Assembly (NCBI GenBank): GCA_018433865.1
Contig: JAHDQJ010000013.1
Location: 1 to 64,000 of the forward strand
Origin: Spirochaetales bacterium
Lineage (GTDB): Bacteria; Spirochaetota; Spirochaetia; Sphaerochaetales; Sphaerochaetaceae
DNA: 64,000 nucleotides
Direction: 5' to 3'
Part shown: piece after piece, positions 11,100-54,960 of the stretch
Numbering within the stretch: position 1 is the stretch's first letter
Layout of the letters: each line of letters starts with the position of its first letter
Made by a program: the position numbers and the translations under genes
The notes under the pieces: generated by a model
The model's database searches: none
What the model was told of the DNA's origin: nothing
Seen by the model: the letters and a program-made list of their open reading frames with translations, nothing else

Positions 11100-11105
11100 C
11101 GGATC

Positions 11106-38548: not shown

Positions 38549-38551
38549 ATC

Positions 38552-39754
38552 ATGACACACACACCGACCGTAGTCGTCGCAGGCCATCTGTGCCTCGACC
38601 TGACCCCGCAGTTTCCCCCGGATACCCCGACTGACATGGGAAAACTCTTCATTCCGGGCAAGCTGATCAACATGGGAAGCATGACCATCGCGACCGGGGG
38701 CCCGGTTTCGAACACAGGTATCGCGCTCTCGATCCTCGGTATCGATACCGCGCTCATGGCGAAGATCGGACAGGATTTCGTGGGGAAAGGAGTGCTCGAG
38801 CAGTTCTCCCGTCATCACGTGACTTCCTATCTGCAAGAAGTCCCTGGTGCAGATACCAGCTACACCGTGGCGTTGGTACCGAAGGGGATGGACCGCATCT
38901 TCTTGCACTGCACCGGGGCGAACGACACCTTCGATTCCGGCGACCTCGACTACGATCTGATTGCACAGGCAGATCTGTTCCACTTCGGCTATCCTCCCCT
39001 GATGAGACAAATGTACGTGGACAACGGGAAGGAATTGGTTGCCATCTTCAAGCGGGTGAAGGAGAGCGGAGTCACCACCAGCTTGGACCTTTCGTTGCCC
39101 GATCCGAACAGTGAGTCGGGTAAAGCCGATTGGCAGCGGATCTTGGAAAAGGTCCTGCCTTATGTCGACCTGTTCTTGCCCAGCATCGAAGAGTCCTCAT
39201 TCATGGTGGATAGCCAACTGTATCAATCACTGCGCTCATCAGCTACCACCACAGACATGCTGGAGCACCTGGACATCAACGACCTGCCACGGATCAGCGA
39301 ACGGTTCCTCAAGATGGGTGCGAAGATCGTGGTGGTGAAATGCGGCGTGAAGGGTTTCTCGATCCGCACCTCTTCCGCGGAAGTCCTTTCGCACATGGGG
39401 AGACTGAAACCTGCAGATATGGGCAATTGGGCCGATCGCGAGCTCCATGAAGAGAGCTTCAATGCGGAGCCGGTCGTGTCGGCTACCGGTTCGGGGGATT
39501 CCAGTATCGCAGGATTCCTCTCCTCCCTCGTGCGGGGATTCCCGATCGAGGATTCGATCAGGATGGCCTGTGCAGTCGGCGGATTGAACGTACGGGCCTA
39601 TGATGCGATCAGCGGAATCAAGAATTGGGATGAGACCCGTGCATTGGTAGCCGCAGGGTGGGAAAAGAACTGCTTGCAAGTGAGCGGTGACTACTGGACC
39701 TACGATGCCGCTAGACAGGTCTGGATCGGTCGGCACGATTCCCAAAGGAGCTGA
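38552..39754 (+). CDS. PfkB-family carbohydrate kinase
   Basis: The 400-residue kinase opens with TVVVAGHLCLDLTPQFPP and a GGPVSNTGIALSILG segment (PfkB signature 1). It ends with SATGSGDSSIAGFLSSLVRG, where D316 is the catalytic base in the anion hole. A long insert of about 60 residues (MVDSQLYQSLRSS...) enlarges it beyond the usual 300-330. It starts three bases after the GH38 stop. It likely phosphorylates a monosaccharide released by the neighbouring glycosidases or formed by the oxidoreductases; the substrate is not predictable. Confidence 0.9.
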   Translation: MTHTPTVVVAGHLCLDLTPQFPPDTPTDMGKLFIPGKLINMGSMTIATGGPVSNTGIALSILGIDTALMAKIGQDFVGKGVLEQFSRHHVTSYLQEVPGADTSYTVALVPKGMDRIFLHCTGANDTFDSGDLDYDLIAQADLFHFGYPPLMRQMYVDNGKELVAIFKRVKESGVTTSLDLSLPDPNSESGKADWQRILEKVLPYVDLFLPSIEESSFMVDSQLYQSLRSSATTTDMLEHLDINDLPRISERFLKMGAKIVVVKCGVKGFSIRTSSAEVLSHMGRLKPADMGNWADRELHEESFNAEPVVSATGSGDSSIAGFLSSLVRGFPIEDSIRMACAVGGLNVRAYDAISGIKNWDETRALVAAGWEKNCLQVSGDYWTYDAARQVWIGRHDSQRS

Positions 39755-39760
39755 ACCTCC

Positions 39761-42040
39761 ATGCACGGTATCGAGCGCTATTCGACATTCACGTTCGGGG
39801 ACATGACCGTCTCCTATCTGCTCGATACCGCAAATGGACGAATCGGTTTCTTGCTGCATCCACGATCAAAGCCCGATCGGTTGGATCAACATCGCATGGA
39901 CCTATCCGAAGTTTGTGAGGTGAGCCGCTATATCAATGGGATAGGAGCAAAAAGTCCTGCTTCCTTCCGCCTGGAACCGCTGGTTGTCTACGCTGTGGCA
40001 GGCTCGGTCCGTCAGGGCGGACTTACTGCCGGAGTGTCGCAACGTAACGATTCGAGCAGCGACAGGTGCAAGTTTGTCAGCCAGGAGGCGAAGACTGAGG
40101 GAGGCAGGACGACAGTCATCACCATTTCTCGTGATGAGACCTCGGGGATAGAATACCTGCATGCATTGACGTACTGCCAAGATGAGCGGCATGTGACCAT
40201 GCGGTCACGTTTGAGAAACCGCAGTACAGAAAACCGCATGATCACCATGGCCCACGGGGGGGCACTGGGATGCATCTCTCCGTATGCGACGTCGACCCAA
40301 GGAAATCGGTTGACGATCCATCGCATCAGGGGAGGGTGGTCGAACGAGGGGAGACGTAAAAGCGAAACGCTCGAGTCGTTGGGGTTGGAACAGTCCTGGT
40401 CGAATCACGCACTTCGGTGTGAACGGTTCGGACAAGCCGGTTCGCTCGCAAATCTCCGTTGGTTCCCTGTCGTCGCAGTGGAGGACGAGCAGGAACACGT
40501 GTTCTGGGGGTTCAAGCTCGCATGTCCGGCATCATGGCAGATCGAGATCGCCGCACAGGATGATTTCCTCAGTATCTCAGGAGGATATGCCGATCAGGAG
40601 ATGGGACACTGGTGCAAATGGTTGGACCCGAACGAGGAATTGGTCTTGCCTGAGCTCTTGGTCAGTACGGCCTACACACAGGATTTCCTTGCATTCGCCC
40701 AAAGGATTCCGCTGGCATCAAGACCACTGTCTAACGTTTCACGTCTAAGTGATCCGGTGGTGTTCAATGATTGGTGTACCGTGTGGGGTGCGACATCAGA
40801 CGCATCGGTGAGAAGATTGCTTCCTCTCTGCAAGGAAGTCGGGGCACATTACTTCGTCATCGATGCGGGATGGTATGCTGATGCACAGGGGTCTTGGGCG
40901 GAAGGACAGGGAGATTGGATACCCTCTCTGGCACGCTATCCCGAGGGGTTGGCACACACCTGTGCGATGATCCGGCAACAGGGAATCGTCCCCGGCCTCT
41001 GGTGCGAACCTGAGGCAGTCGGGCCCAAATCAAGTCTGTGGGAATGCCACGATTGGTTGCTTCACAAGGATGGGGTTCCGATCCAGGTGGGTTGTCGTCG
41101 TTTCCTTGACCTGAGAAACCATGAGGTCCTGGACTACCTTGAGCGGAAGCTGGGCACACTCATCTCTTCATGCACCTTGGGATACCTGAAACTCGATGCA
41201 AATGAGTCGGTCGGCATCGGTTGTGATGGAGTGGAATCGGCCGGTGAGGAGCTGCGGCTCCATATGGAAGGGTTGAGCAGTCTCCTCAGGCGTCTCGGGG
41301 AAAGATTCCCCGATCTGGTAATTGAAAATTGTGCGGCCGGAGGCTTGCGATTGGAACCGCACATGGTCGGACTCGCCACGATCACCTCGGCAACCGATGC
41401 GCATGAGATCATCAGCATCCCCATCATCGTGGCCAATGAGTACCATATGGCCCGACCGGATCAATTGCTGGTCTGGACCGTACTGCGCCAGGAGGACGAT
41501 CCTAGGAGGTTTCACTATACGCTCGCCTCCTCATTCCTTGGCATCATGTGTCTCAGCGGTGACCTCCCACTCCTGCATGGATGGCAGAAAGATCGTCTCA
41601 AGGAGGCCATCCGATTGCATGAAGCCTCCCGTATTCTGCGACAGGATGCCTCGATCAGGATATGGGGAGAGCCGGTACGTTCCTACCTGGAACCAAAAGG
41701 ATACCAAGCGGTGTTGTTCGTTCGCGAACACACCTTGCTCATCGTCATGCACACATTCGCCAGTGAAACGACTACATGCACCCTTCCGCTTGCACAGTAT
41801 CGTCCACAATCCATCGCATGGCAGTTCAGCGAAAGTTCACTCACGTTCGACTTGCAGTCCTCGGGAGATCTCGTCTTCTCGCATGTCCCTCCCTTCAGTG
41901 GGATGGTGGTGAGTCTTGCGCGCCGGGCAGATATGTGCGCAACACCATCGGATACGTGTACACCAGCTCATAGCCCTACATATGATCCATCTGACCAAAG
42001 TGCCCATGGAAGCAAGAATACCGTCTCCAATCCCACATGA
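39761..42040 (+). CDS. Alpha-galactosidase (GH36)
   Basis: The 759-residue enzyme has the GH36 layout of an N-terminal beta-sandwich, central barrel and C-terminal beta domain. Catalytic residues are readable: nucleophile D479 in YLKLDANES and acid/base D546 in TSATDAHEI, close to positions 478 and 548 of characterised Geobacillus AgaA. Other family features are YFVIDAGWYAD, PGLWCEPEAVG and ENCAAGG. No signal peptide is seen, so it acts on imported alpha-galactosides in the cytoplasm. It starts behind AAAGGAG six bases after the kinase stop and is the last gene of the operon. Confidence 0.93.
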   Translation: MHGIERYSTFTFGDMTVSYLLDTANGRIGFLLHPRSKPDRLDQHRMDLSEVCEVSRYINGIGAKSPASFRLEPLVVYAVAGSVRQGGLTAGVSQRNDSSSDRCKFVSQEAKTEGGRTTVITISRDETSGIEYLHALTYCQDERHVTMRSRLRNRSTENRMITMAHGGALGCISPYATSTQGNRLTIHRIRGGWSNEGRRKSETLESLGLEQSWSNHALRCERFGQAGSLANLRWFPVVAVEDEQEHVFWGFKLACPASWQIEIAAQDDFLSISGGYADQEMGHWCKWLDPNEELVLPELLVSTAYTQDFLAFAQRIPLASRPLSNVSRLSDPVVFNDWCTVWGATSDASVRRLLPLCKEVGAHYFVIDAGWYADAQGSWAEGQGDWIPSLARYPEGLAHTCAMIRQQGIVPGLWCEPEAVGPKSSLWECHDWLLHKDGVPIQVGCRRFLDLRNHEVLDYLERKLGTLISSCTLGYLKLDANESVGIGCDGVESAGEELRLHMEGLSSLLRRLGERFPDLVIENCAAGGLRLEPHMVGLATITSATDAHEIISIPIIVANEYHMARPDQLLVWTVLRQEDDPRRFHYTLASSFLGIMCLSGDLPLLHGWQKDRLKEAIRLHEASRILRQDASIRIWGEPVRSYLEPKGYQAVLFVREHTLLIVMHTFASETTTCTLPLAQYRPQSIAWQFSESSLTFDLQSSGDLVFSHVPPFSGMVVSLARRADMCATPSDTCTPAHSPTYDPSDQSAHGSKNTVSNPT

Positions 42041-43076: not shown

Positions 43077-44063
43077 TCAATAGCTCTCCCTGAGAATCAA
43101 GCGGGGAGTGACCAGATGGTGGAGTTTCTGTTCCTGATTCTTTAGGAGGGAGAGCAGTCCCTTCGCCGCGATCTCACCTGTCTCAGTGATCGATTGGGAA
43201 ATGGTACTCAAGGGAATCCTGCTCAACGCGCTTATTCTGATGTTATCATAGCCCAGGATCGATACCTGCTCAGGTATCTTGATGCCCTCTTCGACCAATC
43301 TGTTGATGATACCGATCGCAACGTTGTCGTTGGTGAGGAACAGTGATGTCGGAATCCGGTCTATATGCTCCTGCTCGATCAGACGGGGTGCAAGCTTGTA
43401 TCCGTCCTCTTGGGTCTTCACATGCGCATAGCGTTTGACCGATTGCGCATCCTCGATCTCTTCGAAGAATCCTTCCAGCCGATGCTCCACCGATTGATGT
43501 CCGAATCCAGTGATCACTAATGTCTGCTCACGCCTGTGGGTGTTCACATACCGTGCGGCAATCCTTCCTCCTTCACGATTATCGCAACAGACGAAGGAGA
43601 TATCTGGATTCTTCGGGATGCAATTAACCACAACAAAAGGGATGCCCGCATCTTGAAGCATGCGCATCGCGACGCTTTCCTCCTTGATCGGAGCGAGGAG
43701 CACTCCCTCCACACGGCTGCTGATCAGCGACCTGACCAGCTTGATCTCACGATCCTCGATCCAACGCGAACTGCTCAGCAGCATCGAGTATCCGCTGGGA
43801 GAGAGGATACGGTCGATTCCCTCCGCGATCTCGATGAAAAAGAAGTTGGAAAGCTCGTCGATGATCACCCCGATTGTCTTCGTAGGTGTTCCGGCAAGGC
43901 CTTGGGCCAGGAGACTCGGTGTGTACGAGTATTTGTCCATTATCTCATGGACTCTGTCCTGCGTCTTCTTCGACACGAGCTCAGGATGTGAAATGACCCG
44001 TGAGACCGTGGCCTTGCTCACACCCGCTTCCCTGGCGATGTCATCGATTGTCTTGAGCTTCAT
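43077..44063 (-). CDS. LacI-family transcriptional regulator
   Basis: A 328-residue repressor with a canonical helix-turn-helix (TIDDIAREAGVSKATVSRVISH) and hinge, then an effector domain (ALFLTND-like SLFLTNDNVAIGIINRL; ISQSITETGEIAAKGLLSLL). It is divergent from the second CUT1 operon. The intergenic region has two TGAAAGCGGTT(T/A)CA operators of the kind this HTH sequence class recognises. A promoter pointing at this gene (TTGACA, 17 bp, TAAGGT; 44101 down to 44073) would start transcription a few bases before the ATG, so the message may be nearly leaderless. Confidence 0.93.
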   Translation of the reverse strand: MKLKTIDDIAREAGVSKATVSRVISHPELVSKKTQDRVHEIMDKYSYTPSLLAQGLAGTPTKTIGVIIDELSNFFFIEIAEGIDRILSPSGYSMLLSSSRWIEDREIKLVRSLISSRVEGVLLAPIKEESVAMRMLQDAGIPFVVVNCIPKNPDISFVCCDNREGGRIAARYVNTHRREQTLVITGFGHQSVEHRLEGFFEEIEDAQSVKRYAHVKTQEDGYKLAPRLIEQEHIDRIPTSLFLTNDNVAIGIINRLVEEGIKIPEQVSILGYDNIRISALSRIPLSTISQSITETGEIAAKGLLSLLKNQEQKLHHLVTPRLILRESY

Positions 44064-44145: not shown

Positions 44146-44150
44146 ACAAA

Positions 44151-44164
44151 TGAAAGCGGTTTCA
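44151..44164. promoter_or_regulatory. LacI/cre-type operator O1
   Basis: TGAAAGCGGTTTCA is a near-perfect palindrome around a central CG, the classical LacI/GalR-family site. It overlaps the predicted +1 of the operon, so occupancy would block transcription. Confidence 0.8.
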
Positions 44165-44228
44165 TTCATCATCCAACAGTAGTACTTTTCAAACGCTTCT
44201 GGTGTATGGAGTACTTGGTGGAAAATAA

Positions 44229-44242
44229 TGAAAGCGGTTACA
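44229..44242. promoter_or_regulatory. LacI/cre-type operator O2
   Basis: TGAAAGCGGTTACA differs from O1 by one base and lies 78 bp downstream, just before the GGGGAGAG ribosome site of the first structural gene. Repressor bound at O1 and O2 could form a loop. A weaker match (TTCAAACGCTTCT, 44188-44200) lies between them. Confidence 0.75.
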
Positions 44243-44259
44243 TAGATGGGGAGAGACAG

Positions 44260-46137
44260 ATGGACATCGCACGGTTCCTTCGATCACAAAAGAACATAGC
44301 TGTTGCAGTCATCGGAGATGTGTGCCTGGATCTCGCCTATCAGATAACCACGGAGGGGGCCGAGGTTTCAGTTGAAACGGGACTGCAGACATTCTCCGTG
44401 CTCAGCAGCAAGCCCGAACTCGGCGGGGCGTGTAATGTAGCAGTGAATTGCATGACACTCGGAGCTGATACGGTGGATCTGTATGGCATCATCGGTAACG
44501 ATTTTTTCGGGGACCTTATCCTCTCCATGCTTTCACGCAAGAGGATCGGTATCGAATCTGTGGTGCGTCAAGATGAGCAGTGGTCGAGCCACGTATACCA
44601 TAAGGTGTTCGAAAAAGGAAAAGAACATCCACGCTTCGACAGTGGCAATTTCAACGTTCCCCAAAGACATACCCTCGATACCTTGCTCGATCGATTCCGA
44701 TCGAAACTCTACACCTATGATGTCATCATCATCAACGAACAGGTCCCAAAGGGCTTGCACTCACCAGAGTTCCAGCAGTTGCTGAACCAGCTCATTGCCG
44801 AATGTGATCCTTCGATACTCTGGTTCGCCGATTGCCGTAAGCTCAATGACAGTTACAAGCGGACGATCCACAAGTTGAACGAGCAGGAGGGCAGGGCGTT
44901 GTTCGGCTGCCCCTGTACGTTGGAGCGAGACGAACTAGCCCGCTGGTTGCTCCGCTATTTTCAGAAACCGGTGATCCTGACCCTCGGTCCGGATGGTGCG
45001 ATCGCGGTCGACGAACAGGCTATCACCGAAATCCCCGGTATCCACTTCACCGGGCAGATCGACTCTGTCGGAGCGGGGGATGCCTTCCTCGCCGGTCTCG
45101 CGATCGCCTCCTGTCGTGGTGCAAACACCGCCCAAGCTGCCTATATCGGCAACCTCTGCGCGGGGGTTTCCCTTACGGTTCTCTATGAATGCGGGCATCC
45201 CACGGTCGAGGAAGTGGAACGCTTGGCGAGGAATGCCGATTGGCGTTACCACCCCCAGATTGCTGAAGACAGTCGTCGCGCCACCTATTGGGATAATTCT
45301 CCCATCGAGATTATTGCACCACGTCACATGGCCGCCTTCCCTGCCATCGCCATATTCGATCACGACGGCACCATCTCCACCCTCCGGCAAGGCTGGGAAG
45401 CGGTGATGGAGTCGAGCATGATGTGTGCGATCGCAGGGGATGCATATTCCCGCCTATCCCCCCATCATCTCGATATGCTTACCGAGGAGATCCGGCAGTT
45501 CATCGATCGTACCACCGGCATCCAGACGATCGAGCAGATGCATCATCTCGTGCAGATGGTACGGCGGCACGGTTTGGTCAACGATTCTCAAATCCTCACC
45601 CCTCAAGAGTACAAGGCCCTCTACAACGAAGAATTGCTGAAGATGGTCTCCCGTAAGGTGAAGGAAATCAAGGAAGGCCGGTTGGATACCAGCGATGTCA
45701 CGCTCAAAGGATCGGTTGCATTCCTCCGGTACCTCGCTGAACGTAAGGTAAAACTTTTCCTGGCCAGTGGGACCGATACCGCCGATGTGCGTGCGGAAGC
45801 CGAGCTGCTTGGCTATGCGGACTGCTTCGAAGGAAGGATATTCGGTTCGGTTGGGGATGTTGCCAATGATCCCAAGCGGGTGGTAATCAAGCAAATCATC
45901 GAGAATGAGGTAGGTGGGGATCCGAGCCGTTGCATTGTTTTCGGTGATGGACCGGTGGAGATGCGGGAGGCGAAGCGGCACGGTCTCATTGCGATCGGGC
46001 TGGCCAGTGATGAGGTTCGTCGCTATGGAGACAATCCAAAGAAACGTAAACGACTGATCCTTGGTGGAGCCGACCTGCTCCTGCCCGATTTTTCCTACGC
46101 CGATGAATTGGCACGTTGCCTAGGATGGGAGGGTTGA
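44260..46137 (+). CDS. Bifunctional fusion: PfkB/HldE-like sugar kinase and HAD-family phosphatase
   Basis: The 625-residue protein joins two enzymes. Residues about 1-330 are a ribokinase-fold kinase of the RfaE/HldE type (AVIGDVCLDLAY, PELGGACNVAVN, QIDSVGAGDAFLAG with catalytic D274). Residues about 360-620 are a HAD hydrolase with motif I FDHDGT (D367, D369), a helical cap, motif II LASGTD (S503) and motif IV FGDGPVEM (D563). The start at 44260 follows GGGGAGAGACAG; an earlier ATG at 44206 would read through operator O2 and lacks a ribosome site. It would phosphorylate a sugar and dephosphorylate a phosphosugar, reminiscent of consecutive heptose-pathway steps. Confidence 0.88.
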   Translation: MDIARFLRSQKNIAVAVIGDVCLDLAYQITTEGAEVSVETGLQTFSVLSSKPELGGACNVAVNCMTLGADTVDLYGIIGNDFFGDLILSMLSRKRIGIESVVRQDEQWSSHVYHKVFEKGKEHPRFDSGNFNVPQRHTLDTLLDRFRSKLYTYDVIIINEQVPKGLHSPEFQQLLNQLIAECDPSILWFADCRKLNDSYKRTIHKLNEQEGRALFGCPCTLERDELARWLLRYFQKPVILTLGPDGAIAVDEQAITEIPGIHFTGQIDSVGAGDAFLAGLAIASCRGANTAQAAYIGNLCAGVSLTVLYECGHPTVEEVERLARNADWRYHPQIAEDSRRATYWDNSPIEIIAPRHMAAFPAIAIFDHDGTISTLRQGWEAVMESSMMCAIAGDAYSRLSPHHLDMLTEEIRQFIDRTTGIQTIEQMHHLVQMVRRHGLVNDSQILTPQEYKALYNEELLKMVSRKVKEIKEGRLDTSDVTLKGSVAFLRYLAERKVKLFLASGTDTADVRAEAELLGYADCFEGRIFGSVGDVANDPKRVVIKQIIENEVGGDPSRCIVFGDGPVEMREAKRHGLIAIGLASDEVRRYGDNPKKRKRLILGGADLLLPDFSYADELARCLGWEG

Positions 46138-46139
46138 AA

Positions 46140-47231
46140 GTGCACAGGCAATTCGACCGGAACATAATGACCTACTATCCGCTAGCCATGCGGAAGAACA
46201 AGGTGGATATCACCCGCTCTTGTGTGGATCCGGTCAATGATCCGGTCTTCCTCAGTGAATCGTTGCAAAAAAGTACTTCGGATATCGCCGAACAGATCCT
46301 CCGTTCCCGTGACAAAGGAGCGTCGGTCATCTGTGCGTTCGGTGCCCACGCCATCAAGAATGGTCTTGGTCGCTTGCTCGGTTCCATGGTCAAGCGGGGG
46401 TGGGTCACACACCTTGCGACCAATGGCGCGGCAGTCATTCATGACTGGGAATTCTCCTACATCGGCCAAAGCAGCGAGGATGTCAGGACAAATATTCAGG
46501 AAGGCAAGTTCGGCACTTGGGAGGAGACGGGGTTCTTTATCAACGTTGCGCTCGCGATTGGGGCCTTCGAAGGTTTGGGCTATGGAGAATCGGTCGGTTC
46601 CCTGATAGTGAATGGCGGGCTGGATATTCCCTCCATTTCCGATCTTGAAGCAGTCGCTACCTCAACTGCACATGTGAGCACCAAGCGAGCTGCTGCCCTG
46701 GATCTGAAGGATCTTATTGAGCGATTGCAGCTTGAGCCGGGATTTCTGCAGGTGATGCATCCCTACGCCTCCTACAGCGCACAAGCGGCCGCCTACGAAT
46801 CACGCATACCATTCACCAGCCATCCGATGTTCGGCCACGATATCATCTATACGCATAAGGCCAACTTGGGTGCAGCAATCGGGAGAACCGCCGAACGGGA
46901 TTTCCTCTCCTATGTACAGAGTGTCGGCGCATTGGAAGGAGGGGTCTACCTTTCGGTAGGGTCCGCGGTGATGTCTCCCATGATCTTTGAAAAATCACTC
47001 TCGATGGTTCGCAATGCAGGCAAGCATATCTCCGATTGTGCAATCCACGTGGTGGATTTGCAGGAGGATGGGTGGGATTGGTCTCATGGGGAACCACCGA
47101 TGGACAATCCTGCTTATTACCTGCGGTTCATGAAGACTTTCAATCGGATGGGGTGCCATGCCTCTTATCACTGTGCAGATAACAAGGCGTTCTTCGTCAG
47201 CCTTCATCGCGAGCTTGAGAAAAGGAGTTGA
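46140..47231 (+). CDS. Conserved protein of unknown function (possible Rossmann-like enzyme)
   Basis: This 363-residue protein starts at a GTG behind GGGAGGG, three bases after the fusion gene. Notable segments are ASVICAFGAHAIKNGLGRL, WVTHLATNGAAVIHDWEFSY and GKFGTWEETGFFINVALAIG. The central part looks like a nucleotide-binding alpha/beta fold and faintly recalls deoxyhypusine-synthase-type proteins, but the GGGxxKHH lysine motif of that family is absent. There is no signal or membrane segment. Its fixed place between the kinase-phosphatase and an epimerase implies a catalytic step on a sugar phosphate. I do not recognise a characterised homologue. Confidence 0.75.
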   Translation: MHRQFDRNIMTYYPLAMRKNKVDITRSCVDPVNDPVFLSESLQKSTSDIAEQILRSRDKGASVICAFGAHAIKNGLGRLLGSMVKRGWVTHLATNGAAVIHDWEFSYIGQSSEDVRTNIQEGKFGTWEETGFFINVALAIGAFEGLGYGESVGSLIVNGGLDIPSISDLEAVATSTAHVSTKRAAALDLKDLIERLQLEPGFLQVMHPYASYSAQAAAYESRIPFTSHPMFGHDIIYTHKANLGAAIGRTAERDFLSYVQSVGALEGGVYLSVGSAVMSPMIFEKSLSMVRNAGKHISDCAIHVVDLQEDGWDWSHGEPPMDNPAYYLRFMKTFNRMGCHASYHCADNKAFFVSLHRELEKRS

Positions 47232-47236
47232 TTGTC

Positions 47237-48523
47237 ATGGATATACGGGAATCGGTATTGTCCTGGAAAGCCGAGATGGAACATCATCTCCATCACGAGC
47301 TGCTTCCATTCTGGTTGGACCGTCTATGGGACGAGAAGTGGGGAGGTTTCCTTACCCAATGGGATGCCGAGGGGAAAGATTCGCAAGTGGACGAGAAATC
47401 GTTGCTCGCCCATATGCGAACCGTCTACTCACTGAGTATCGCGAGTGCCCACGGACATGACCTGGACGGACGATGCGCTGACTTGGCGAGACGGGGAGTT
47501 CTCTTCGCGATCGACCATTATTGGGATTCCGTGCACGGCGGATTTTACTGGCTTTTCAACCGTAAGAACGAAGTGATCATCGATAAGAAGATTGTCTACG
47601 GACTTTCGTTTGCGATATACGCGCTCAGCACCTATGCGAAGACCTTCGGCGATCCGATCGGATTGTACTATGCTGAACGCTGCTTCGATCTTTTGCAGAA
47701 ATATGCAACCGAGACCTCCTATGGAGGGTATTGGGAAATGTTCGAGCGCGACTGGAAACTATGCGCAGGTGATAGTGGCGGCGGTGACCGCAAGACACTT
47801 GATGTTCACATGCACCTGATGGAGGCCTTCACCGCGCTCTATGGAGCCAGCGGGAAGGATATCCACAGGAGGAAACTGATTGAGATAATCAACCTGATCA
47901 ATGCCAATATCCTTCATCCGGAACATAAGACGGGCATTCCCCAATTCTTCTGTGATTGGAGCGTAGCACCTCAGATCAAATTCGATATCATCTGGGGATG
48001 GGACCGGTTTTCTGCAGAATCGGGTGCAAAGCCGAACGCATTGGACAATACCTCATATGGGCACAATGTCGAGTTCTTCTGGCTGCTCAGCGATGCGTTG
48101 CGTGTGCTGGGAGTGTCAAAAGAGCCTTATGAGGCGATGTTTTCCAAAATCCTCGAACACGCGATCACCTATGGAGTGGATCGCGAACATGGCGGAATCT
48201 ATGTAGAGGGTTCGTTGGATGGCTCGGCGGTGTTCGATGCGTACAAGGAATTCTGGCAACAGGCTGAGTTCCTCATCGGTATGCTCGATGCTTATCTGGC
48301 CTATGATGACGAACGGTATCTCGAGGTATACCAAAATGTGCACCGCTTTGTCTTCGACAAAATGATCAACCACAAGGTGGGTGAGTGGCTCGCTCTTCTG
48401 GAGAGGGAGGGGAAGCCGATTTGGAGCCACATGAGCCACTCGTGGAAGGTGAACTACCATACGATCCGAGCTGCGACACTGAGCTTGGATCGGATGGAAA
48501 AGATACTATTGCGTGTGAAATGA
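47237..48523 (+). CDS. AGE-family 2-epimerase (cellobiose/mannobiose or N-acylglucosamine epimerase-like)
   Basis: The 428-residue (alpha/alpha)6-barrel enzyme shows DEKWGGFLTQWD near the N-terminus, then WDSVHGGFYWLFNRK, TLDVHMHLMEAFTALY and LDNTSYGHNVEFFWLLSDAL. The SYGHxxE motif favours the cellobiose/mannobiose 2-epimerase branch over GlcNAc epimerases. HSWKVNYHTIRA supplies the late catalytic His. AAAAGGAG precedes the ATG at 47237. In beta-mannan catabolism, such enzymes convert Man-containing disaccharides to glucosyl forms. No mannoside phosphorylase is present here, so the link is by family only. Confidence 0.88.
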   Translation: MDIRESVLSWKAEMEHHLHHELLPFWLDRLWDEKWGGFLTQWDAEGKDSQVDEKSLLAHMRTVYSLSIASAHGHDLDGRCADLARRGVLFAIDHYWDSVHGGFYWLFNRKNEVIIDKKIVYGLSFAIYALSTYAKTFGDPIGLYYAERCFDLLQKYATETSYGGYWEMFERDWKLCAGDSGGGDRKTLDVHMHLMEAFTALYGASGKDIHRRKLIEIINLINANILHPEHKTGIPQFFCDWSVAPQIKFDIIWGWDRFSAESGAKPNALDNTSYGHNVEFFWLLSDALRVLGVSKEPYEAMFSKILEHAITYGVDREHGGIYVEGSLDGSAVFDAYKEFWQQAEFLIGMLDAYLAYDDERYLEVYQNVHRFVFDKMINHKVGEWLALLEREGKPIWSHMSHSWKVNYHTIRAATLSLDRMEKILLRVK

Positions 48524-48562: not shown

Positions 48563-49834
48563 ATGAGAAAAAGAATCATGGTTGGACTGTTGGTAGCTCT
48601 GGTTGCCACCACGATGCTCTTTGCGCAGGGTGCGCAGGAACGTAAGGGTCCCAGCAAGACGCTGGAGATCTTCAGTTGGTGGACCGCCGGTGGGGAGGCG
48701 GATGGCTTGCAGGCGATGATCAATGAGTTCAATCGTCAGTATCCCGACATTGAGATCATCAACGCTACGGTGGCAGGTGGAGCCGGAACTAACGCCAAGG
48801 CAGTGCTTGCAACCCGGATGCAGGGTGGAAATCCCCCCGATACATTCCAGGTTCACGCAGGGCATGAACTGATCGACACGTGGGTTGTCTCCGGATTCAT
48901 GGAGCCCGTCACCTTCATTCTGAAGGACGCCGGATTCATGGACAAGTACCCCGCTGATGTCATCGACATCATTTCCTACAACGGAGAGGTCTACAGCATC
49001 CCTGTGAACATCCACCGTTCGAACGTCATGTGGTACAGCCCGAAGCTGTTCGCGCAGTTCAATCTTACTCCTCCGAAGACAATCGAGGATTTCTTCAAGG
49101 TCGCTGAAGTCTTCAAGGCGAACGGAATCCCCGCACTCGCCCTGGGTGACAATGAGATCTGGGCAGCGACCCACCTTCTGGAGAGTGTCATCCTCGCCAA
49201 CGTCGGTCCCGATAAATATCGTGACTTGTGGCAGGGAAAGGTAAAGTGGAATGATCCGCAGGTCCGCAAGGGATTGACCGACTACACCAAGATGATGGGC
49301 TATATCAACCGCGACCACGCAGCACTGGCCAATATGGATGCAGCCGGATATGTTGCAGAGGGCAAGGCGGCGATGAACGTAATGGGCGACTGGGCTGCAG
49401 GATACTACTACTCCCAAGGCTTCAAGCAGGGCGTGGATTGGGATTGGGCTCCCGCTCCCGGCACCACCGGCAGCTTCATCATGCTCAGCGACTCTTTCGG
49501 CCTGCCGAAGAATGCTCCTAACCGTGACAACGTCATCAAGTGGCTGACTCTCTGTGCTTCCCAAGCCGGCCAGGATGCGTTCAACCCGATCAAGGGATCG
49601 ATTCCTTCACGGATAGATGGCGACCGCTCCAAGTATGACAAGTACCTGAACGCGGCGATGGATGACTTCGCCTCCAATGCGATCGTTGCCAGTGTCGCAC
49701 ACGGAGCAGCAGTTTCCGAACCATGGTTGACCCGGGTCAATGACATCATGAGCGTGTTCACCACTGATCTGAATGTTGACAAGGCAATCGCCGAATTCCA
49801 GGCGGCAGCCGACAGGTATGCACCTAAAAACTGA
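48563..49834 (+). CDS. Sugar ABC transporter substrate-binding protein (CUT1, family 1 SBP)
   Basis: A 423-residue exported receptor with signal MRKRIMVGLLVALVATTMLFAQGAQE. The mature part carries LEIFSWWTAGGEADGLQAMINEFNRQYPDIEI, NPPDTFQVHAGHELID, EGKAAMNVMGDWAAGYY and KGSIPSRID, which are features of glucose/oligosaccharide family 1 binding proteins. AAAAAGGAGAAGACT precedes the ATG. It is followed by a 30-bp perfect palindrome before the permease genes, which would favour higher receptor than permease yield. Confidence 0.94.
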   Translation: MRKRIMVGLLVALVATTMLFAQGAQERKGPSKTLEIFSWWTAGGEADGLQAMINEFNRQYPDIEIINATVAGGAGTNAKAVLATRMQGGNPPDTFQVHAGHELIDTWVVSGFMEPVTFILKDAGFMDKYPADVIDIISYNGEVYSIPVNIHRSNVMWYSPKLFAQFNLTPPKTIEDFFKVAEVFKANGIPALALGDNEIWAATHLLESVILANVGPDKYRDLWQGKVKWNDPQVRKGLTDYTKMMGYINRDHAALANMDAAGYVAEGKAAMNVMGDWAAGYYYSQGFKQGVDWDWAPAPGTTGSFIMLSDSFGLPKNAPNRDNVIKWLTLCASQAGQDAFNPIKGSIPSRIDGDRSKYDKYLNAAMDDFASNAIVASVAHGAAVSEPWLTRVNDIMSVFTTDLNVDKAIAEFQAAADRYAPKN

Positions 49835-49857: not shown

Positions 49858-49887
49858 GCATGGTTGCAGGATATCCTGCAACCATGC
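49858..49887. repeat. Perfect 30-bp palindrome between receptor and permease genes
   Basis: The arm GCATGGTTGCAGGAT is followed directly by its reverse complement, giving a 15-bp hairpin in RNA with no T-run after it. Placed between a binding-protein gene and its permeases, it resembles mRNA-stabilising or attenuating structures that raise receptor levels, as in malE-malF. Confidence 0.9.
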
Positions 49888-49902
49888 ACTGAAAGAGGTA
49901 GT

Positions 49903-50796
49903 ATGTACTGTGCAAAGAAAGACCGCAGGTTGGCGATCATCATCCTGATTCCGATGCTTTCGGTGTTGTTCCTTTTTGTCTACGGATTCATCGCATGGTC
50001 GCTGAGGATATCGTTCACCGATTGGAACAGCATTCTTCCAGACATGACATGGGTAGGACTCGACAACTACCGCATGCTGTTCTCCTCCCAGCGGTTCCAG
50101 ACCGATATACGCAATACCCTCTACTTCACCGTTTTCTTCATGGCAATCTGTATCGTCGGTGGATTCTTCCTCAGTTACCTGCTTTACTCGAAATTGAAAG
50201 GAGAGTCCCTGCTCAGGACGATCTACCTCTTTCCCCTTTCCCTTTCGTTCGTGGTGACCGGCGTTCTTTGGCGTTGGATCTTCAGCCCCGAGGTCGGGAT
50301 CAATGCGCTGTTCAGGATGATGGGATTCAAGGCGACCTTCGGATGGTTCACCAGCACCCATAGCGTGGCGGGTTTCAATGTCGCGCTCATCGCACTGATC
50401 ATCGCGGCTTCTTGGCAATACATGGGATATACCATGGCCATGTTCCTTGCAGGATTGCGCGGCATACCCGACCAGCTGATCGAATCAGCACAAATGGACG
50501 GGGCAGGGGAAGCCGCCATCATCTGGTACATCATCCTCCCTATCATCAAACCCATCACCTTCTCCGCGATGATCGTGCTCGGGCACATTTCCTTGAAGAT
50601 TTTCGACCTCGCGTACGCGATGACCGGTAAAGGGCCTGCGTTTGTCACCGATTTTCCAGGATTGTTCATGTTCGAGACGACTTTTCGGGGCAACCATTAT
50701 GCCGAGGGTGCTGCCATCTCCATCATCATGCTCTTCTTGGTCGCACTGGTGATCGTTCCCTATCTCTACTCCACGTTGAAGGGGGATGCCCAATGA
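49903..50796 (+). CDS. Sugar ABC transporter permease (CUT1, MalF/UgpA-like)
   Basis: The 297-residue membrane protein has six segments and the EAA loop QLIESAQMDGAGEAAIIWYIILPIIKP. ATG 49903 follows GAAAGAGGTAGT; the longer frame upstream runs through the palindrome and is not a plausible protein. It overlaps the next permease gene by ATGA. It forms the channel with that partner; as in the first CUT1 operon, no ATPase gene is present. Confidence 0.93.
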   Translation: MYCAKKDRRLAIIILIPMLSVLFLFVYGFIAWSLRISFTDWNSILPDMTWVGLDNYRMLFSSQRFQTDIRNTLYFTVFFMAICIVGGFFLSYLLYSKLKGESLLRTIYLFPLSLSFVVTGVLWRWIFSPEVGINALFRMMGFKATFGWFTSTHSVAGFNVALIALIIAASWQYMGYTMAMFLAGLRGIPDQLIESAQMDGAGEAAIIWYIILPIIKPITFSAMIVLGHISLKIFDLAYAMTGKGPAFVTDFPGLFMFETTFRGNHYAEGAAISIIMLFLVALVIVPYLYSTLKGDAQ

Positions 50797-51617
50797 CCAT
50801 GAACCGTTCGAGCAAGGCGATTAAGTATGCCTTGGCTATCATAGGCGTGCTGCTATTCCTCTTTCCTCTCTATATCATCTTCAATAACAGTCTTAAACCG
50901 TTCAGCGACGTCCGTATCAGTGAGATGTGGATCCCTGCACGGAATGTCTCTCTCGAAGGATATGGTGAAGCTATCGTAAAGCTTGCACAGAATATCCAGA
51001 ACAGCTTCATCCTCGTCATTCCCGTGAGTCTCCTCTCGGTGCTCTTCGGCTCGGTGATCGGTTTCATCTTTGCCAAGGTGAAATTCCGCTTTTCCAACGT
51101 CCTTTTCGCTCTGGTGATCTTCGGAATGTTCATTCCATACCAAAGCATCCTCATCCCATTGGTGCGGAGCATGAACAAAATCGGACTCTACGGGAAATTG
51201 TCTGGTTTGATCGTGACCCATATCATCTACGGTCTTCCCATCTCATCGCTTATGTTCCGCAACTACTATGCGAAGATCCCTGACGAGCTGGTTGAGGCCG
51301 GCATGATCGACGGATTGCGTCTTTGGGGAGTATTTACCCAAGTTGTGGTGCCCATCTCACTTCCTACAATGGTAGTCGTATTGATCTGGCAATTCACCAG
51401 CGTCTGGAACGACTTCCTGTTCGCAGTTGTCCTCACCCAAAGACCTTCAATCCAGCCGATCACTGTTGCATTGCAGAATCTCGCGGGTACGCAGGTCATT
51501 GAGTGGAATGTACAGATGGCCGGTGCACTCATCGCGGCCATTCCTACCTTGCTCGTCTATATTTTCCTCGGCAAGTATTTCATACAGGGACTCTTATCTG
51601 GATCAGTGAAAGGGTAG
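50793..51617 (+). CDS. Sugar ABC transporter permease (CUT1, MalG/UgpE-like)
   Basis: The 274-residue membrane protein has six segments, the EAA loop ELVEAGMIDGLRLWGVFTQVVVPISLP and the tail YFIQGLLSGSVKG. Its start overlaps the preceding permease stop. It completes the importer, and the ROK kinase gene follows after six bases. Confidence 0.93.
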   Translation: MTMNRSSKAIKYALAIIGVLLFLFPLYIIFNNSLKPFSDVRISEMWIPARNVSLEGYGEAIVKLAQNIQNSFILVIPVSLLSVLFGSVIGFIFAKVKFRFSNVLFALVIFGMFIPYQSILIPLVRSMNKIGLYGKLSGLIVTHIIYGLPISSLMFRNYYAKIPDELVEAGMIDGLRLWGVFTQVVVPISLPTMVVVLIWQFTSVWNDFLFAVVLTQRPSIQPITVALQNLAGTQVIEWNVQMAGALIAAIPTLLVYIFLGKYFIQGLLSGSVKG

Positions 51618-51623
51618 GTCGCA

Positions 51624-52532
51624 ATGGATTCACATATATTCCTTGGTATCGACATTGGTGGTACCAAGACCTCCATCAGCATTGGTGATGATTCGGGAAG
51701 ACTCTTGGGAAAACGCAAGTTTTCCACGCGATCGGGGGTGGATTCGGTAGTCTCAGACTGTCACCGTGAGATATCACTGCTTCTTCAGGAAGTCAATCTC
51801 GCATGCTTTGATGCGATCGGCATCTCCTGCGGCGGACCTCTTGACAGCAAGCTGGGAATCATCCAATCCCCGCCGAACCTCCCCGGCTGGGATGACATCC
51901 CGATTGTCAAGATATTCGAGGAATGCTACCACGTTCCGGTGTATCTTGAGAATGATGCGAACGCATGCGCGCTTGCCGAGTGGTATTGGGGCAATGGAAG
52001 GGGAAGCGATTCAATCATCTTCCTCACCTTTGGTACCGGCTTGGGAGCCGGTCTCATACTCGATGGCAAGTTGTATCGTGGAACTAGCGGGCTCGCCGGC
52101 GAAATCGGTCATTGGCGGATGGCGGATGATGGTCCCTACTGTTACTACAAGAGAGGTTCGTGGGAGAGTTTTTGCAGCGGTTCGGGCATTGCAGGATTAT
52201 ATGAACAGGTCACAGGCAAACGGTTGAGCGCCAAGGATGTGTGTGAAGCAGCGAAGTCCGGGGAGGTACATGCCGTGCAAGTCATCGATGAGAGCGCACG
52301 CATGCTCGGTGTAGGTCTTGCGCTCCTAGTCGACCTGCTCAATCCTCAGACGATCATCATCGGCAGTATTTATACGCGGGATGAAGAGCTGTTCAAGCCC
52401 CTGATGGACCGAGTGATGCTCGAGGAGACGTTGTCCATTGCCTACCGTGATTGCACAGTGCTTCCGTCATTGCTTGGAGAGCAGCTGGGAGACATGGCCG
52501 CGCTTGGAATCGCGATGGAACGGTATGCATGA
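51624..52532 (+). CDS. ROK-family sugar kinase
   Basis: A 302-residue kinase with the phosphate-binding motif GIDIGGTKTS at residues 8-17, substrate-binding ENDANACALAEW, and the second phosphate loop TFGTGLGAGLILDG. The conserved zinc-site His is H163 (EIGHWRM). The Cys cluster that normally follows (CxCGxxGCxE) is replaced by CYYKRGSWESFCSGSG, so structural zinc binding is doubtful. It probably phosphorylates a hexose such as glucose or an N-acylhexosamine released after epimerisation. It is tightly placed after the permeases. Confidence 0.9.
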   Translation: MDSHIFLGIDIGGTKTSISIGDDSGRLLGKRKFSTRSGVDSVVSDCHREISLLLQEVNLACFDAIGISCGGPLDSKLGIIQSPPNLPGWDDIPIVKIFEECYHVPVYLENDANACALAEWYWGNGRGSDSIIFLTFGTGLGAGLILDGKLYRGTSGLAGEIGHWRMADDGPYCYYKRGSWESFCSGSGIAGLYEQVTGKRLSAKDVCEAAKSGEVHAVQVIDESARMLGVGLALLVDLLNPQTIIIGSIYTRDEELFKPLMDRVMLEETLSIAYRDCTVLPSLLGEQLGDMAALGIAMERYA

Positions 52533-52546
52533 AGGAGAGAATAGCC

Positions 52547-53197
52547 ATGAATACATTGCATGAAGACATACGATTCTCACTTGCAGATCTGTTGAATCGG
52601 TATCCTGCACTCGTGTGTATCGAATCAACCCTGCAGGACGCCTATCGATTACTACTGGACGCAGCCTATTCCCGGCACAAGTTCTTGGTCGCAGGAAACG
52701 GTGGAAGCGCTTCTGATGCTGAGCATATCGTTGGTGAGTTGATGAAATCGTTCGTGCGTAGCCGGCCGATCGACAAGACAGTGCAAGAGAATCTAGTCAT
52801 GTTCGACCCTGACCTTGGAAGCGTGATCGCCTCCCGGTTGCAAGGGGCTCTTCCAGCGATCTGCCTCTCCAGTCATCAGGCACTCAACACGGCATTTGCA
52901 AATGATGTAGATCCCTCGTTGGCTTATGCACAGCAAGTATATGGATACGGGGAGGCCGGTGATCTTTTTTGGGGTATCTCCACCTCTGGGAATGCAAAAA
53001 ATGTCCTGCAAGCCGCGTTGGTGGCGAAGGCCATGGGGATGCGGGTATTTGGCATGACCGGTGAGCATGGAGGTGCATTGAAAGCGCTCTGCGATGTATG
53101 CCTCCAGGTACCCGAGCGAGAGACCTATAAAATTCAGGAATTGCACCTTCCCATCTACCATTGGCTCTGTATCGCTCTTGAACAATCGTTCTGGTAG
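52547..53197 (+). CDS. SIS-domain sugar-phosphate isomerase, GmhA-like
   Basis: The 216-residue protein matches sedoheptulose-7-phosphate isomerase (GmhA/LpcA) in length and motif: FLVAGNGGSASDAEHIVGEL (residues 46-65), FANDVDPSLAYAQQVYGYGEAGDLFWGISTSGNAKNV and a C-terminal HLPIYHWLCIALEQ. GGAGAGAATAGCC precedes the ATG at 52547; an earlier in-frame ATG lies before that ribosome site. GmhA feeds heptose biosynthesis, and the kinase-phosphatase fusion six genes upstream resembles the next steps. Placement in a LacI-controlled uptake operon instead argues for a catabolic isomerase of the same fold. Confidence 0.88.
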   Translation: MNTLHEDIRFSLADLLNRYPALVCIESTLQDAYRLLLDAAYSRHKFLVAGNGGSASDAEHIVGELMKSFVRSRPIDKTVQENLVMFDPDLGSVIASRLQGALPAICLSSHQALNTAFANDVDPSLAYAQQVYGYGEAGDLFWGISTSGNAKNVLQAALVAKAMGMRVFGMTGEHGGALKALCDVCLQVPERETYKIQELHLPIYHWLCIALEQSFW

Positions 53198-53207
53198 GAG
53201 GATCGCC

Positions 53208-53924
53208 ATGCAATTGCTTCCCGGCTTATATCAAGTGGGCTCAAGTCTCTCTGGTCTCACCTCCGATCAAGTGGCTGGTCCCTTCGACGACTGCAATGTC
53301 TATGCGCTGGACCTCGTGTCGGAGATCGTCCTGATCGATTGCGGGAATGGGGATTCATGGCCTGAGATTGAACGGAACATGCGCATGTGGAGTCTCGATT
53401 CGTCAAGGATATCTACAGTTTTGCTCACTCATCCGCACTATGACCATGCCAATGCAGCTCATCTGTTGAAGGCACGTAATGTACAGATAATTGCACACTC
53501 CTATACCGCTGATGCACTGCGCACAGGGGATGAGCGGTGTTGCGGCTTCCTCTATCATCGGTCGTTTGTTCCGGTGGAAGCGGATTGTATGGTAGAAGAT
53601 GGTGACACGCTTACCTTTGGTACCATAACGGTACAATGTCTTCACCTTCCGGGGCATACCCTCGGATGCACCGCGTTTTTGGTATCTTGGAACGATAATC
53701 GGGTACTTTTCAGTGGAGATGTGATTGGAACGTTGGGCTATGGACACTTCGGGTGGAGCGGTTCGATTGATTTCGACCGGAAGGCATATCTTCAGTCACT
53801 ACGCAGGCTCGCGAAGCTCGATTTCGATGTCATGTTGCCCGGTCATGGTCTTTGTTCATTTAAGAATCCACGTGCTCGTGTCGAAACCAGCCTCAACGAG
53901 GCACTGATGCAATGGAGGTATTGA
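53208..53924 (+). CDS. Metallo-beta-lactamase-fold hydrolase (glyoxalase II-like branch)
   Basis: The 238-residue enzyme has the motif THPHYDH (H75, H77, D79, H80), a third-ligand strand LHLPGHTLGCTAFLV, the bridging Asp in VLFSGDVIG, and a final MLPGHGLC. This complete set binds two metals. GGTAGGAGGATCGCC precedes the start. It has no clear relation to the RNase Z-like MBL protein of the TTT operon. A role hydrolysing a lactone, ester or thioester intermediate is plausible; no specific substrate can be named. Confidence 0.88.
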   Translation: MQLLPGLYQVGSSLSGLTSDQVAGPFDDCNVYALDLVSEIVLIDCGNGDSWPEIERNMRMWSLDSSRISTVLLTHPHYDHANAAHLLKARNVQIIAHSYTADALRTGDERCCGFLYHRSFVPVEADCMVEDGDTLTFGTITVQCLHLPGHTLGCTAFLVSWNDNRVLFSGDVIGTLGYGHFGWSGSIDFDRKAYLQSLRRLAKLDFDVMLPGHGLCSFKNPRARVETSLNEALMQWRY

Positions 53925-53925
53925 G

Positions 53926-54960
53926 GTGCTGACTTCAAAGGAACGGGTAAAGCTTGCGCTGCAGAAAAGACCGGTGGACCGTATCCCGGTAAGCCTCTGG
54001 ATGCATCCGCAGACTTCGCAGGCTCTTATGGAACACTTTGGTGTCGATAAGGATGCACTCGATGATATCTTGCTGCAGGATGTGCGCCAGATTTGGGTGA
54101 ACAACAACTTTGCCATGGAAGGAATCGTTCATGAGCATGATGGAGAGGGGCATATCGACGAGTGGGGAGTACACTGGGAGAGGCAGCATGGATTCAACCA
54201 GATCAAGGAATCTCCATTCTCTTTGAGTAGTGCCCGAGAGATCGATGGAAGTGCATTCCCTTACGACAAGCTGGAACACCTGATGCAACCGATGGCTACT
54301 CTTGCTTCAAAGAGTTCACGATACTTCCTTGGCTGTGACGTTTCTCCCTGTGGGTTCGAACTCTTCTCACGCATGCGCGGGATGGAGGAGGCCCTTCTCG
54401 ATCTTGCGCTTGATTCCGAAGGTGCAGCCAGTGCAATAGGCGAGTGCTTGGAATTCTCCATTTTCCTGGCCAAAGAAGCGGTGAAACGGTTCGAGTTGGA
54501 TTGGCTATGGACCGGCGATGATGTGGCGGGACAACAAGGGATGCTCATGAGTCCAGAAATGTGGCGACGTTTGATCAAGCCCGGGCTTGCGAAGCTCTTC
54601 GCTGTTGGGAAGGAACGAGGATTGCCTGTCGCTTATCATTGTTGTGGAGCATTGCGACCGATCATCGGCGATTTGATCGATATCGGGCTCGACGTGTTGC
54701 ATCCGATCCAACCGAACTGTCCGGGGATGGATCCGGCATCGTTGAAACAGGAGTTCGGCAAGGATCTCGCGTTCATCGGAGGTCTCGATACTCAAAACCT
54801 GATCCCAAATGCCAGTGCACATGAAGTAAGGGAAGAGACCAAGCGCTTGATCGATATCATGACAAGTGACGGGGGAGGTTACATACTAGCTGCCTCACAT
54901 ACCGTCCCCCCAGAAACTCCGCTTGAGAACATCCTGGCGATCTATGATGCAATAGGGTGA
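53926..54960 (+). CDS. Uroporphyrinogen-decarboxylase family protein
   Basis: The 344-residue protein starts at a GTG (MLTSKERVKLALQKRPVDRIPV) with GGAGG nearby. It shows the full metal-type motif LPVAYHCCGALRP (H238, C240) and the distal ILAASHTVPPETPLENILAI, where His occupies the position of the third Cys ligand of MtaA. WLWTGDDVAGQQGMLMSPEMWRRLIKP is typical of the COG0407 group. It begins one base after the MBL gene's stop and ends the operon. This is the sixth URO-D-like gene in the window and the third sugar locus to contain one. Confidence 0.83.
   Translation: MLTSKERVKLALQKRPVDRIPVSLWMHPQTSQALMEHFGVDKDALDDILLQDVRQIWVNNNFAMEGIVHEHDGEGHIDEWGVHWERQHGFNQIKESPFSLSSAREIDGSAFPYDKLEHLMQPMATLASKSSRYFLGCDVSPCGFELFSRMRGMEEALLDLALDSEGAASAIGECLEFSIFLAKEAVKRFELDWLWTGDDVAGQQGMLMSPEMWRRLIKPGLAKLFAVGKERGLPVAYHCCGALRPIIGDLIDIGLDVLHPIQPNCPGMDPASLKQEFGKDLAFIGGLDTQNLIPNASAHEVREETKRLIDIMTSDGGGYILAASHTVPPETPLENILAIYDAIG

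Follow-up and report, generated by a model that had tools for sequence, protein, structure and literature searches.

Gene content and regulation of the locus

The window, by which we mean the whole stretch of 64,000 nucleotides analysed here, contains an open reading frame of 363 codons on the + strand, which starts with GTG at position 46140, stops with TGA at positions 47229-47231 and encodes a protein here called DHSL. A Shine-Dalgarno-like run, GGGAGGG, is located about 6 bases 5' of the GTG codon, and the purely mechanical open reading frame starts at TTG 46116. The gene immediately upstream encodes a fusion of a sugar kinase and a HAD phosphatase, and its stop codon (TGA, 46135-46137) is separated from the start of the DHSL gene by a gap of 2 bases. 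The features of the locus are given below, where counts out of 80 refer to the best 80 of 358 loci with relatives of DHSL.

43077-44063, - strand: LacI-family repressor, transcribed divergently from the kinase-HAD gene (PF00356, 70.8 bits; PF13377, 84 bits)
44149-44166, no strand: LacI-type operator AATGAAAGCGGTTTCATT, a palindrome with perfect 7-base arms
44206-46137, + strand: fusion of a PfkB sugar kinase (residues ~26-337) and a HAD phosphatase (residues ~373-643) (PfkB, 88.8 bits; Hydrolase, 49.7 bits)
44227-44244, + strand: second operator copy with 2 mismatches, within the called start of the fusion gene
46140-47231, + strand: DHSL, long form of the GSU2086 family, 363 amino acids (open reading frame, NF052581 at 310 bits, fold model, conservation)
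47228-48523, + strand: AGE-family (GlcNAc 2-epimerase/cellobiose 2-epimerase-like) epimerase, likely start ATG 47237 (PF07221, 127.9 bits; EpiA, 130 bits against a cut-off of 800)
48563-49834, + strand: binding protein of a sugar ABC transporter (assigned by reading; position kept in L031, L033, L052, and L056)
49864-50796, + strand: first permease of the sugar ABC transporter (assigned by reading; kept in the same 4 loci)
50793-51617, + strand: second permease of the sugar ABC transporter (assigned by reading; matched in 13 of 80 loci)
51624-52532, + strand: ROK-family sugar kinase (PF00480, 190.4 bits)
52547-53197, + strand: GmhA-like SIS isomerase that has an insertion when compared with GmhA (TIGR00441, 123.2 bits, below the cut-off of 209.45; E 2e-30 to the phosphoheptose isomerase 2xbl in PDB)
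53208-53924, + strand: metallo-beta-lactamase-fold hydrolase, with which the conserved set ends (PF00753, 87.1 bits; 5 of 80 loci)

The operator pattern, with up to 3 mismatches allowed, is expected 0.03 times in the window, and palindromes centred on ACCGGTT or AGCGGTT were found in 9 of 14 LacI/kinase intergenic regions, including that of the window. Since the fusion gene as called would contain the second operator copy, its true start is probably ATG 44260 (MDIARFL) rather than 44206. A scan for promoters and terminators upstream of the fusion gene identified none.

The order of the genes for the kinase-HAD fusion, DHSL, the AGE epimerase, the ABC transporter, the ROK kinase, the SIS isomerase, and the metallo-beta-lactamase-fold hydrolase was the same in L031 (the Sphaerochaeta halotolerans homologue), L033, L052, and L056. 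Among the best 80 of the 358 loci, 31 contained a gene for a GmhA-like SIS isomerase, 29 for a ROK kinase, 26 for a LacI repressor, and 11 for an AGE epimerase. Because of the LacI operators, the sugar transporters, and the genes for ROK, GmhA-like, and AGE proteins, the setting of DHSL is an inducible, LacI-controlled sugar-catabolic operon. As a genome-wide marker, the GmhA-like isomerase proved uninformative, since 71 of the 247 genomes gave a match (E ≤ 1e-20).

Further genes were found in other loci. A Bacteroidota locus, L077, contained an SSF transporter with relatives in L098, L104, L106, and L109. A class II aldolase adjoins DHSL in L100, a DHDPS-type aldolase was found in L074, L104 contained both an FGGY kinase and a DHDPS-type aldolase, and L081 contained AP_endonuc_2 and MocA proteins. 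TPR, PKD, CHAD, and DUF4340 proteins were also present among the 26 neighbours scanned.

It was also noted that a separate sugar cluster is located upstream in the window, at positions 35720-42040, where open reading frames that by reading are alpha-mannosidase-like and alpha-galactosidase-like surround a PfkB kinase (PF00294); a cluster with GH38-like matches was located near DHSL in 7 related loci. Genes for URO-D/MtaA-like methyltransferases were observed near the sugar operons, at positions 53926-54960 of the window and in L034, L037, L038, L047, and L099, and 2 more such open reading frames were seen by eye at positions ~11100-12368 and ~32500-33498 of the window.

DHSL is a long form of the GSU2086 family

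To collect relatives, we searched one genome per species with degenerate back-translated patterns, which gave 363 matching stretches, 358 of them encoding a relative of DHSL (tblastn, E ≤ 1e-3). This bears out the earlier view of 46140-47231 as a real and conserved gene, and the conservation is far above chance. The alignment comprised 86 long forms, namely the window sequence, the 80 loci, and 6 further loci, minus one sequence with a stop codon in its translation, and contained 69 invariant columns. The preliminary description had singled out 3 segments as catalytic in appearance, which correspond to residues 67-81, 91-104, and 124-136, and conservation mapping agrees with it: H70, K73, N74, H91, N95, H101, D102, W103, and E104 in these segments are invariant in all 86 sequences.

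The preliminary description had also placed DHSL in no recognised family, which does not hold. By sequence, DHSL is a member of the NCBIfam family NF052581, "GSU2086 family protein", for which it scores 310 bits (cut-off 250), with residues 4-356 aligned to positions 1-299 of the 301 positions in the profile. The family is itself one to which no function has been assigned. The matches in Pfam were below threshold. These were ArgZ-like_C_2nd (22.8 against 27 bits) and the deoxyhypusine synthase (DHS) family PF01916 (15.9 against 27 bits), and the scores to TIGR00321 (deoxyhypusine synthase; 11.7 against 304.25) and TIGR00300 (ornithine cyclodeaminase; 19.6 bits against 410.8) were far below the values for membership.

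The family contains 2 forms. The long form, represented by DHSL and about 360 amino acids in length, contains an extra segment around residues 161-205 and a loop with the pattern WDWxxGEPPxDNPAYY. The short forms in L110-L113 consist of about 300 amino acids and lack the insert at residues 161-205, the loop, and the lysine corresponding to K332. Long and fully supported branches separate the short from the long forms in the tree. No match to a kinase, HAD, or SIS protein was found within the available flanks of the short-form loci L110 and L111. An open reading frame of 444 amino acids, ATP-grasp ligase-like by eye, was located 5' of the short-form gene in L111, and an open frame of 876 codons was located 5' of that in L110. 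Relatives of the window genome encode yet another related group of proteins, the third, with lengths of about 403-417 amino acids (L021, L025, and L028); one of these, L025, was scanned and gave only weak matches to NF052581 and TIGR00300.

In the literature searched, GSU2086 turned up only in a Geobacter insertion study (PMC5585712). Searches for DHS-like, DHS-family, DHS-homolog, and DHS-fold proteins gave no sugar-operon protein among the matches listed, and nothing on the long form was apparent from further searches. We thus found no description, in the literature searched, of the long form as a sugar-operon partner of a kinase-phosphatase fusion.

The kinase-HAD protein is coupled to the family in one direction

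The best NCBIfam match of the fusion protein was to TIGR02198 (HldE), with a score of 96.6 bits that is below the cut-off of 345. The HAD motif residues were conserved in the alignment, and 2 rows were left out of a further alignment. We examined the neighbours of DHSL by tblastn (E ≤ 1e-5) in flanks of up to 8 kb, some contigs being shorter. In 54 of the best 80 of the 358 loci, a kinase or HAD match on the strand of DHSL ended no more than 300 bases upstream; one locus had a match downstream, and the available flank of the remaining 25 contained none. In the same set, the order was kinase-HAD-DHSL in 41 loci and HAD-kinase-DHSL, with separate open reading frames, in 7 loci that formed one supported clade. 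The 25 unlinked loci contained 2 genes for GmhA-like isomerases, 3 for ROK kinases, one for a LacI repressor, and none for an AGE epimerase.

Linked loci were found in records from Spirochaetota, Verrucomicrobiota, Lentisphaerota, Kiritimatiellota, Bacteroidota, Bacillota, and Actinomycetota, and linkage has changed at least 6 times in the tree, as judged by the starred branches; the pattern is therefore not one frozen inheritance. The co-occurrence of the proteins in whole genomes was also assessed. Among 247 genomes from the phylum of the window, 13 contained a protein above the family cut-off (9 long forms, as judged by match length, and 4 short forms). The HAD half was identified in 7 of the 247 genomes (E ≤ 1e-20), all of which belonged to the 9 long-form genomes, in one case (G200) on a separate contig. 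Similarly, in the phylum of G316, the genome that contains L100 (a Verrucomicrobia record), the family was present in 35 of 288 genomes, and all 18 genomes with a match to the HAD profile (E ≤ 1e-25) were among these 35. The hypergeometric probabilities were 4e-12 for the 247 genomes and 3e-19 for the 288 genomes, with the caveat that genomes are not independent of each other.

The reverse was not the case. A kinase-HAD match was present elsewhere (E ≤ 1e-20) in 15 of the 25 unlinked genomes, of which 11 reached the HAD half and 4 covered only the kinase as judged by the query range, and the other 10 genomes contained no match. The coupling is thus strict but one-way: the kinase-HAD protein was not found without the family in 2 phyla, and the family often occurs without the kinase-HAD protein. 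It follows that the kinase-HAD protein depends on the GSU2086 family and not the other way around, and it probably makes or uses up something that only the DHSL enzyme uses. The functional tie to the fusion gene proposed earlier is hence upheld, and the description of DHSL as an obligate pathway component is half right, in that it applies from the side of the fusion protein but not from that of DHSL. A strict two-way obligation can be rejected.

Gene adjacency and one-way co-occurrence could also be accounted for if DHSL were a non-enzymatic scaffold or regulator of the fusion protein. We consider this very unlikely, because a scaffold would hardly explain 69 invariant columns, many of them with His, Asp, Glu, Lys, and Trp residues, or the presence of the family where no kinase-HAD match was found.

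Predicted fold and a candidate active-site lysine

A model of DHSL was inferred with AlphaFold2 from an input of 32 sequences, namely that of the window and 31 of the 80 loci, and had a pLDDT of 91.3 and a pTM of 0.90. The top match in PDB was the C-terminal domain of AgrE (Z 19.0, rmsd 3.4, 218 aligned residues in the VIA-align structure comparison), with a Foldseek E-value of 2e-7 to the AgrE structure 6lrg. It was followed by a Methanococcus relative, 3c2q (Z 18.2), and by deoxyhypusine synthases with Z-scores of 17-18 over about 250 residues, including 7cmc (Z 18.0, rmsd 3.8, 254 aligned) and entries for human DHS (Z ~17). DHSL is thus strongly predicted to adopt the NAD-binding fold of DHS and ornithine cyclodeaminase, and the earlier guess of a DHS-like fold was right.

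In profile comparisons, the long form was aligned over the NAD-motif region with ten cyclodeaminases (E 4e-6; 2 rows were left out of the cyclodeaminase alignment). The E-values to DHS were 0.3 for the long form against 2 sequences and, against 11 sequences, 7e-4 for the long and short forms together and 1.2e-7 for the short form alone, with an unreliable alignment in the C-terminal part.

The active-site lysine had been thought to be missing from DHSL, which is probably wrong. The lysine K332 was present in all 86 long forms and in none of the 4 short forms. In the structure alignment (VIA-align), residue 363 of the model was paired with residue 695 of AgrE and residue 359 of human DHS. The invariant cyclodeaminase lysine (K381 in L023) corresponds to index 664 in AgrE, 31 residues before 695, and K332 is likewise located 31 residues before 363; this mapping takes the PDB numbering as equal to the sequence index and rests on the pairing at the end of the chains. 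We take the catalytic lysine of human DHS to be K329, 30 residues before 359, and one of the structural matches, 8a0f, carries K329A in its title. Furthermore, K332, R336, D347, F351, L352, L355, and L359 matched the cyclodeaminase consensus in a gapless alignment of the tails. On the other side, the K332 diagonal ranked only ~497th among all 30-column windows in a blind gapless scan, residue 363 was paired with residue 696 in ArgZ (6juy), which gives an offset of about 2 residues, the direct profile alignment with DHS was weak in the C-terminal part, where K332 sits, and the short forms have no lysine at this position. Taken together, K332 is likely equivalent to the DHS/cyclodeaminase lysine and located at or near its position.

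The fold and the probable position of the lysine, along with the alignment of PFTSHPMFGHD in DHSL to the PxFxPAxxDxSxG motif of DHS, could be taken to mean that DHSL, like DHS and cyclodeaminase, acts on an amine, either a polyamine or an amino sugar, and forms an imine at K332. This is improbable in our view, since DHSL scored far under the DHS and cyclodeaminase cut-offs and no genes for polyamine or amino acid metabolism stood out nearby, the scanned neighbours including sugar kinases, epimerases, isomerases, and transporters. In a relative at L122, positions 612-1631, a PF01916 protein was observed that passes NF002699, "1,9-bis(guanidino)-5-aza-nonane synthase" (537 bits), and adjoins an open reading frame that by reading is ureohydrolase-like.

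The NAD-domain fold would also be compatible with a sugar dehydrogenase or reductase with net redox chemistry, with NAD as a dissociable co-substrate and plain oxidation of a sugar as the task of the operon. Oxidoreductases are indeed encoded near family members, namely GFO/IDH/MocA proteins in L073 and L081 and an aldo/keto reductase in L071. Yet loci with a MocA or aldo-keto oxidoreductase of their own still contain DHSL, which would make plain oxidation redundant, and the fold relatives DHS and cyclodeaminase are redox-neutral and retain NAD. We therefore regard a dehydrogenase as an unlikely alternative.

Cofactor and the Geobacter namesake

The nearest family, TIGR00300, is named "nickel-pincer nucleotide-dependent" in NCBIfam. 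According to PMC12393405, LarB, LarE, and LarC make the nickel-pincer nucleotide (NPN), which in LarA is attached to a lysine. We used the presence of LarC (PF01969) in genomes as a sign of NPN dependence. All 4 short-form genomes and 22 of the 25 other genomes tested had LarC, but among the 15 long-form genomes in the phylum it was absent from 9, including the window genome, which is 99.91% complete. Because the window genome lacks LarC, we take DHSL to use NAD rather than NPN, and note that the AgrE structure 6lrg is titled with NAD and ornithine. It was also observed that the window genome encodes a full-length TIGR00300 ornithine cyclodeaminase (L023, G000:C47:272159-272437; 501.5 bits) without LarC, which sits badly with the name of that family. 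A literature search identified nothing that joins the nickel-pincer with ornithine cyclodeaminase.

The namesake of the family, GSU2086, is located between hldE and gmhA in Geobacter, as judged by locus numbers. Since the family model has 301 positions, GSU2086 is presumably a short form in a biosynthetic setting, so the Geobacter phenotype may not transfer to DHSL. We take nikMN to be for nickel uptake, and the descriptions of GSU0140 and GSU0536 would presumably fit LarB and LarE. The log2 ratios of insertions in Geobacter sulfurreducens on electrodes were -3.1 for hldE, -3.2 for GSU2086, and -3.7 for gmhA, and the same table also contained nikMN (-2.0), the AIR-carboxylase-like GSU0140 (-2.2), its neighbour GSU0141 (-2.3), and the adenosine nucleotide alpha-hydrolase GSU0536 (-2.6) (PMC5585712). 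The electrode defect common to all of these genes may reflect a link between NPN and heptose, and the Geobacter short form may use NPN.

That the whole GSU2086 family, DHSL included, uses NPN instead of NAD is a further alternative, for which the name of TIGR00300, the presence of LarC in all short-form genomes, and the joint occurrence of GSU2085-2087 with nikMN, GSU0140, GSU0141, and GSU0536 in the Geobacter table (PMC5585712) could be cited. We give it little credence, given the long-form genomes without a LarC match and the ligands named in the AgrE entry.

Proposed role in sugar catabolism

Our preferred reading, which we put forward tentatively, is that DHSL is a redox-neutral, NAD-dependent epimerase or isomerase of a sugar or sugar phosphate in the LacI-controlled operon, with phosphate put on and taken off by the kinase-HAD protein. 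This reading builds on the fold, coupling, and context of DHSL, as obtained by prediction and comparison. DHS and cyclodeaminase are redox-neutral and retain NAD. By analogy, DHSL would keep NAD(H) in its site and move a hydride out and back in a redox-neutral shuttle. The substrate would probably be a sugar or sugar phosphate imported by way of the operon, and the PfkB/HAD fusion would probably add and remove a phosphate around the DHSL step. An anomeric phosphate would keep the ring locked while DHSL oxidises one carbinol, the oxidised centre or its neighbour would epimerise or isomerise, and DHSL would reduce it back. The transient keto sugar might be held by K332 as an imine, which is the weakest step. 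Support for the steps, all of which we infer, falls in the order NAD retention, redox-neutral shuttle, sugar-phosphate substrate, and K332 imine. Since 10 of the 25 unlinked genomes contained no kinase-HAD match, the phosphate steps cannot be general.

A wider and more speculative reading, which we think is rather unlikely as a whole, is that the GSU2086 family consists of hidden-redox sugar-phosphate epimerases on the DHS fold, with NAD and a lysine imine in the long form and NPN in the Geobacter form. We know of no hidden-redox sugar-phosphate epimerisation on this fold. The long form would invert a carbinol of a ring-locked aldose-1-phosphate that the kinase-phosphatase fusion both provides and releases, with manno-heptose catabolism via a GmhA-like isomerase and sedoheptulose 7-phosphate as one possible outcome. 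In Geobacter, the protein would perform a related step in LPS heptose assembly with NPN, and nickel uptake and the apparent LarB- and LarE-like genes would therefore show the same insertion phenotype.

A fold of polyamine and amino acid chemistry appears to have been put to use in the breakdown of sugars in at least 7 phyla. Once assigned, the DHSL reaction would annotate several hundred genes, reveal a sugar pathway without a description in the literature searched, test the lysine-plus-NAD mechanism of DHS and cyclodeaminase on carbinols, and explain a "hypothetical" gene of the Geobacter heptose operon.

Comparison with known systems

The operon resembles the GmhA-HldE-GmhB pathway in that it encodes a GmhA-like isomerase, a PfkB kinase similar to the kinase part of HldE (HldE-I), and a phosphatase. 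In the heptose pathway, an anomeric kinase and a phosphatase act after the GmhA isomerase, and this may serve as a model for the role of the fusion protein. The best NCBIfam matches and the Geobacter data suggest heptose or a similar aldose phosphate as the substrate. However, the scores of the kinase and the isomerase do not reach the HldE and GmhA cut-offs, the phosphatase matches generic HAD models (PF00702/PF13419), and no nucleotidyltransferase was seen in the operon. The kinase half was closer in PDB to the "fructokinase" 3hj6 (E 4e-11) than to the heptose-7-phosphate kinase 4e84 (E 6e-7), and for this reason, together with the low score to HldE, heptose is no more than a candidate. A literature search for heptose catabolism gave no description of such a pathway.

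The closest structural counterpart of DHSL is ornithine cyclodeaminase (TIGR00300, the C-terminal domain of AgrE and ArgZ). The NAD motifs are alike, with GAHxIKxG...NGA..HDxE aligned to GPVVVHTGG...GNAVAVHDLE, and the K...R...D tail is probably common to both. However, SIRDDGPLPE, which is invariant in the cyclodeaminase alignment, is absent from DHSL, where the corresponding region is HPMFGHDIIYTH.

DHS (PF01916), which in humans forms hypusine on a translation factor, is likewise similar to DHSL in its fold and probably has its lysine at or near the position of K332. DHSL differs from DHS in that no DHS-type substrate gene was seen and in its sugar context; to our knowledge, all characterised members of the DHS/cyclodeaminase fold act on amines and not on sugars.
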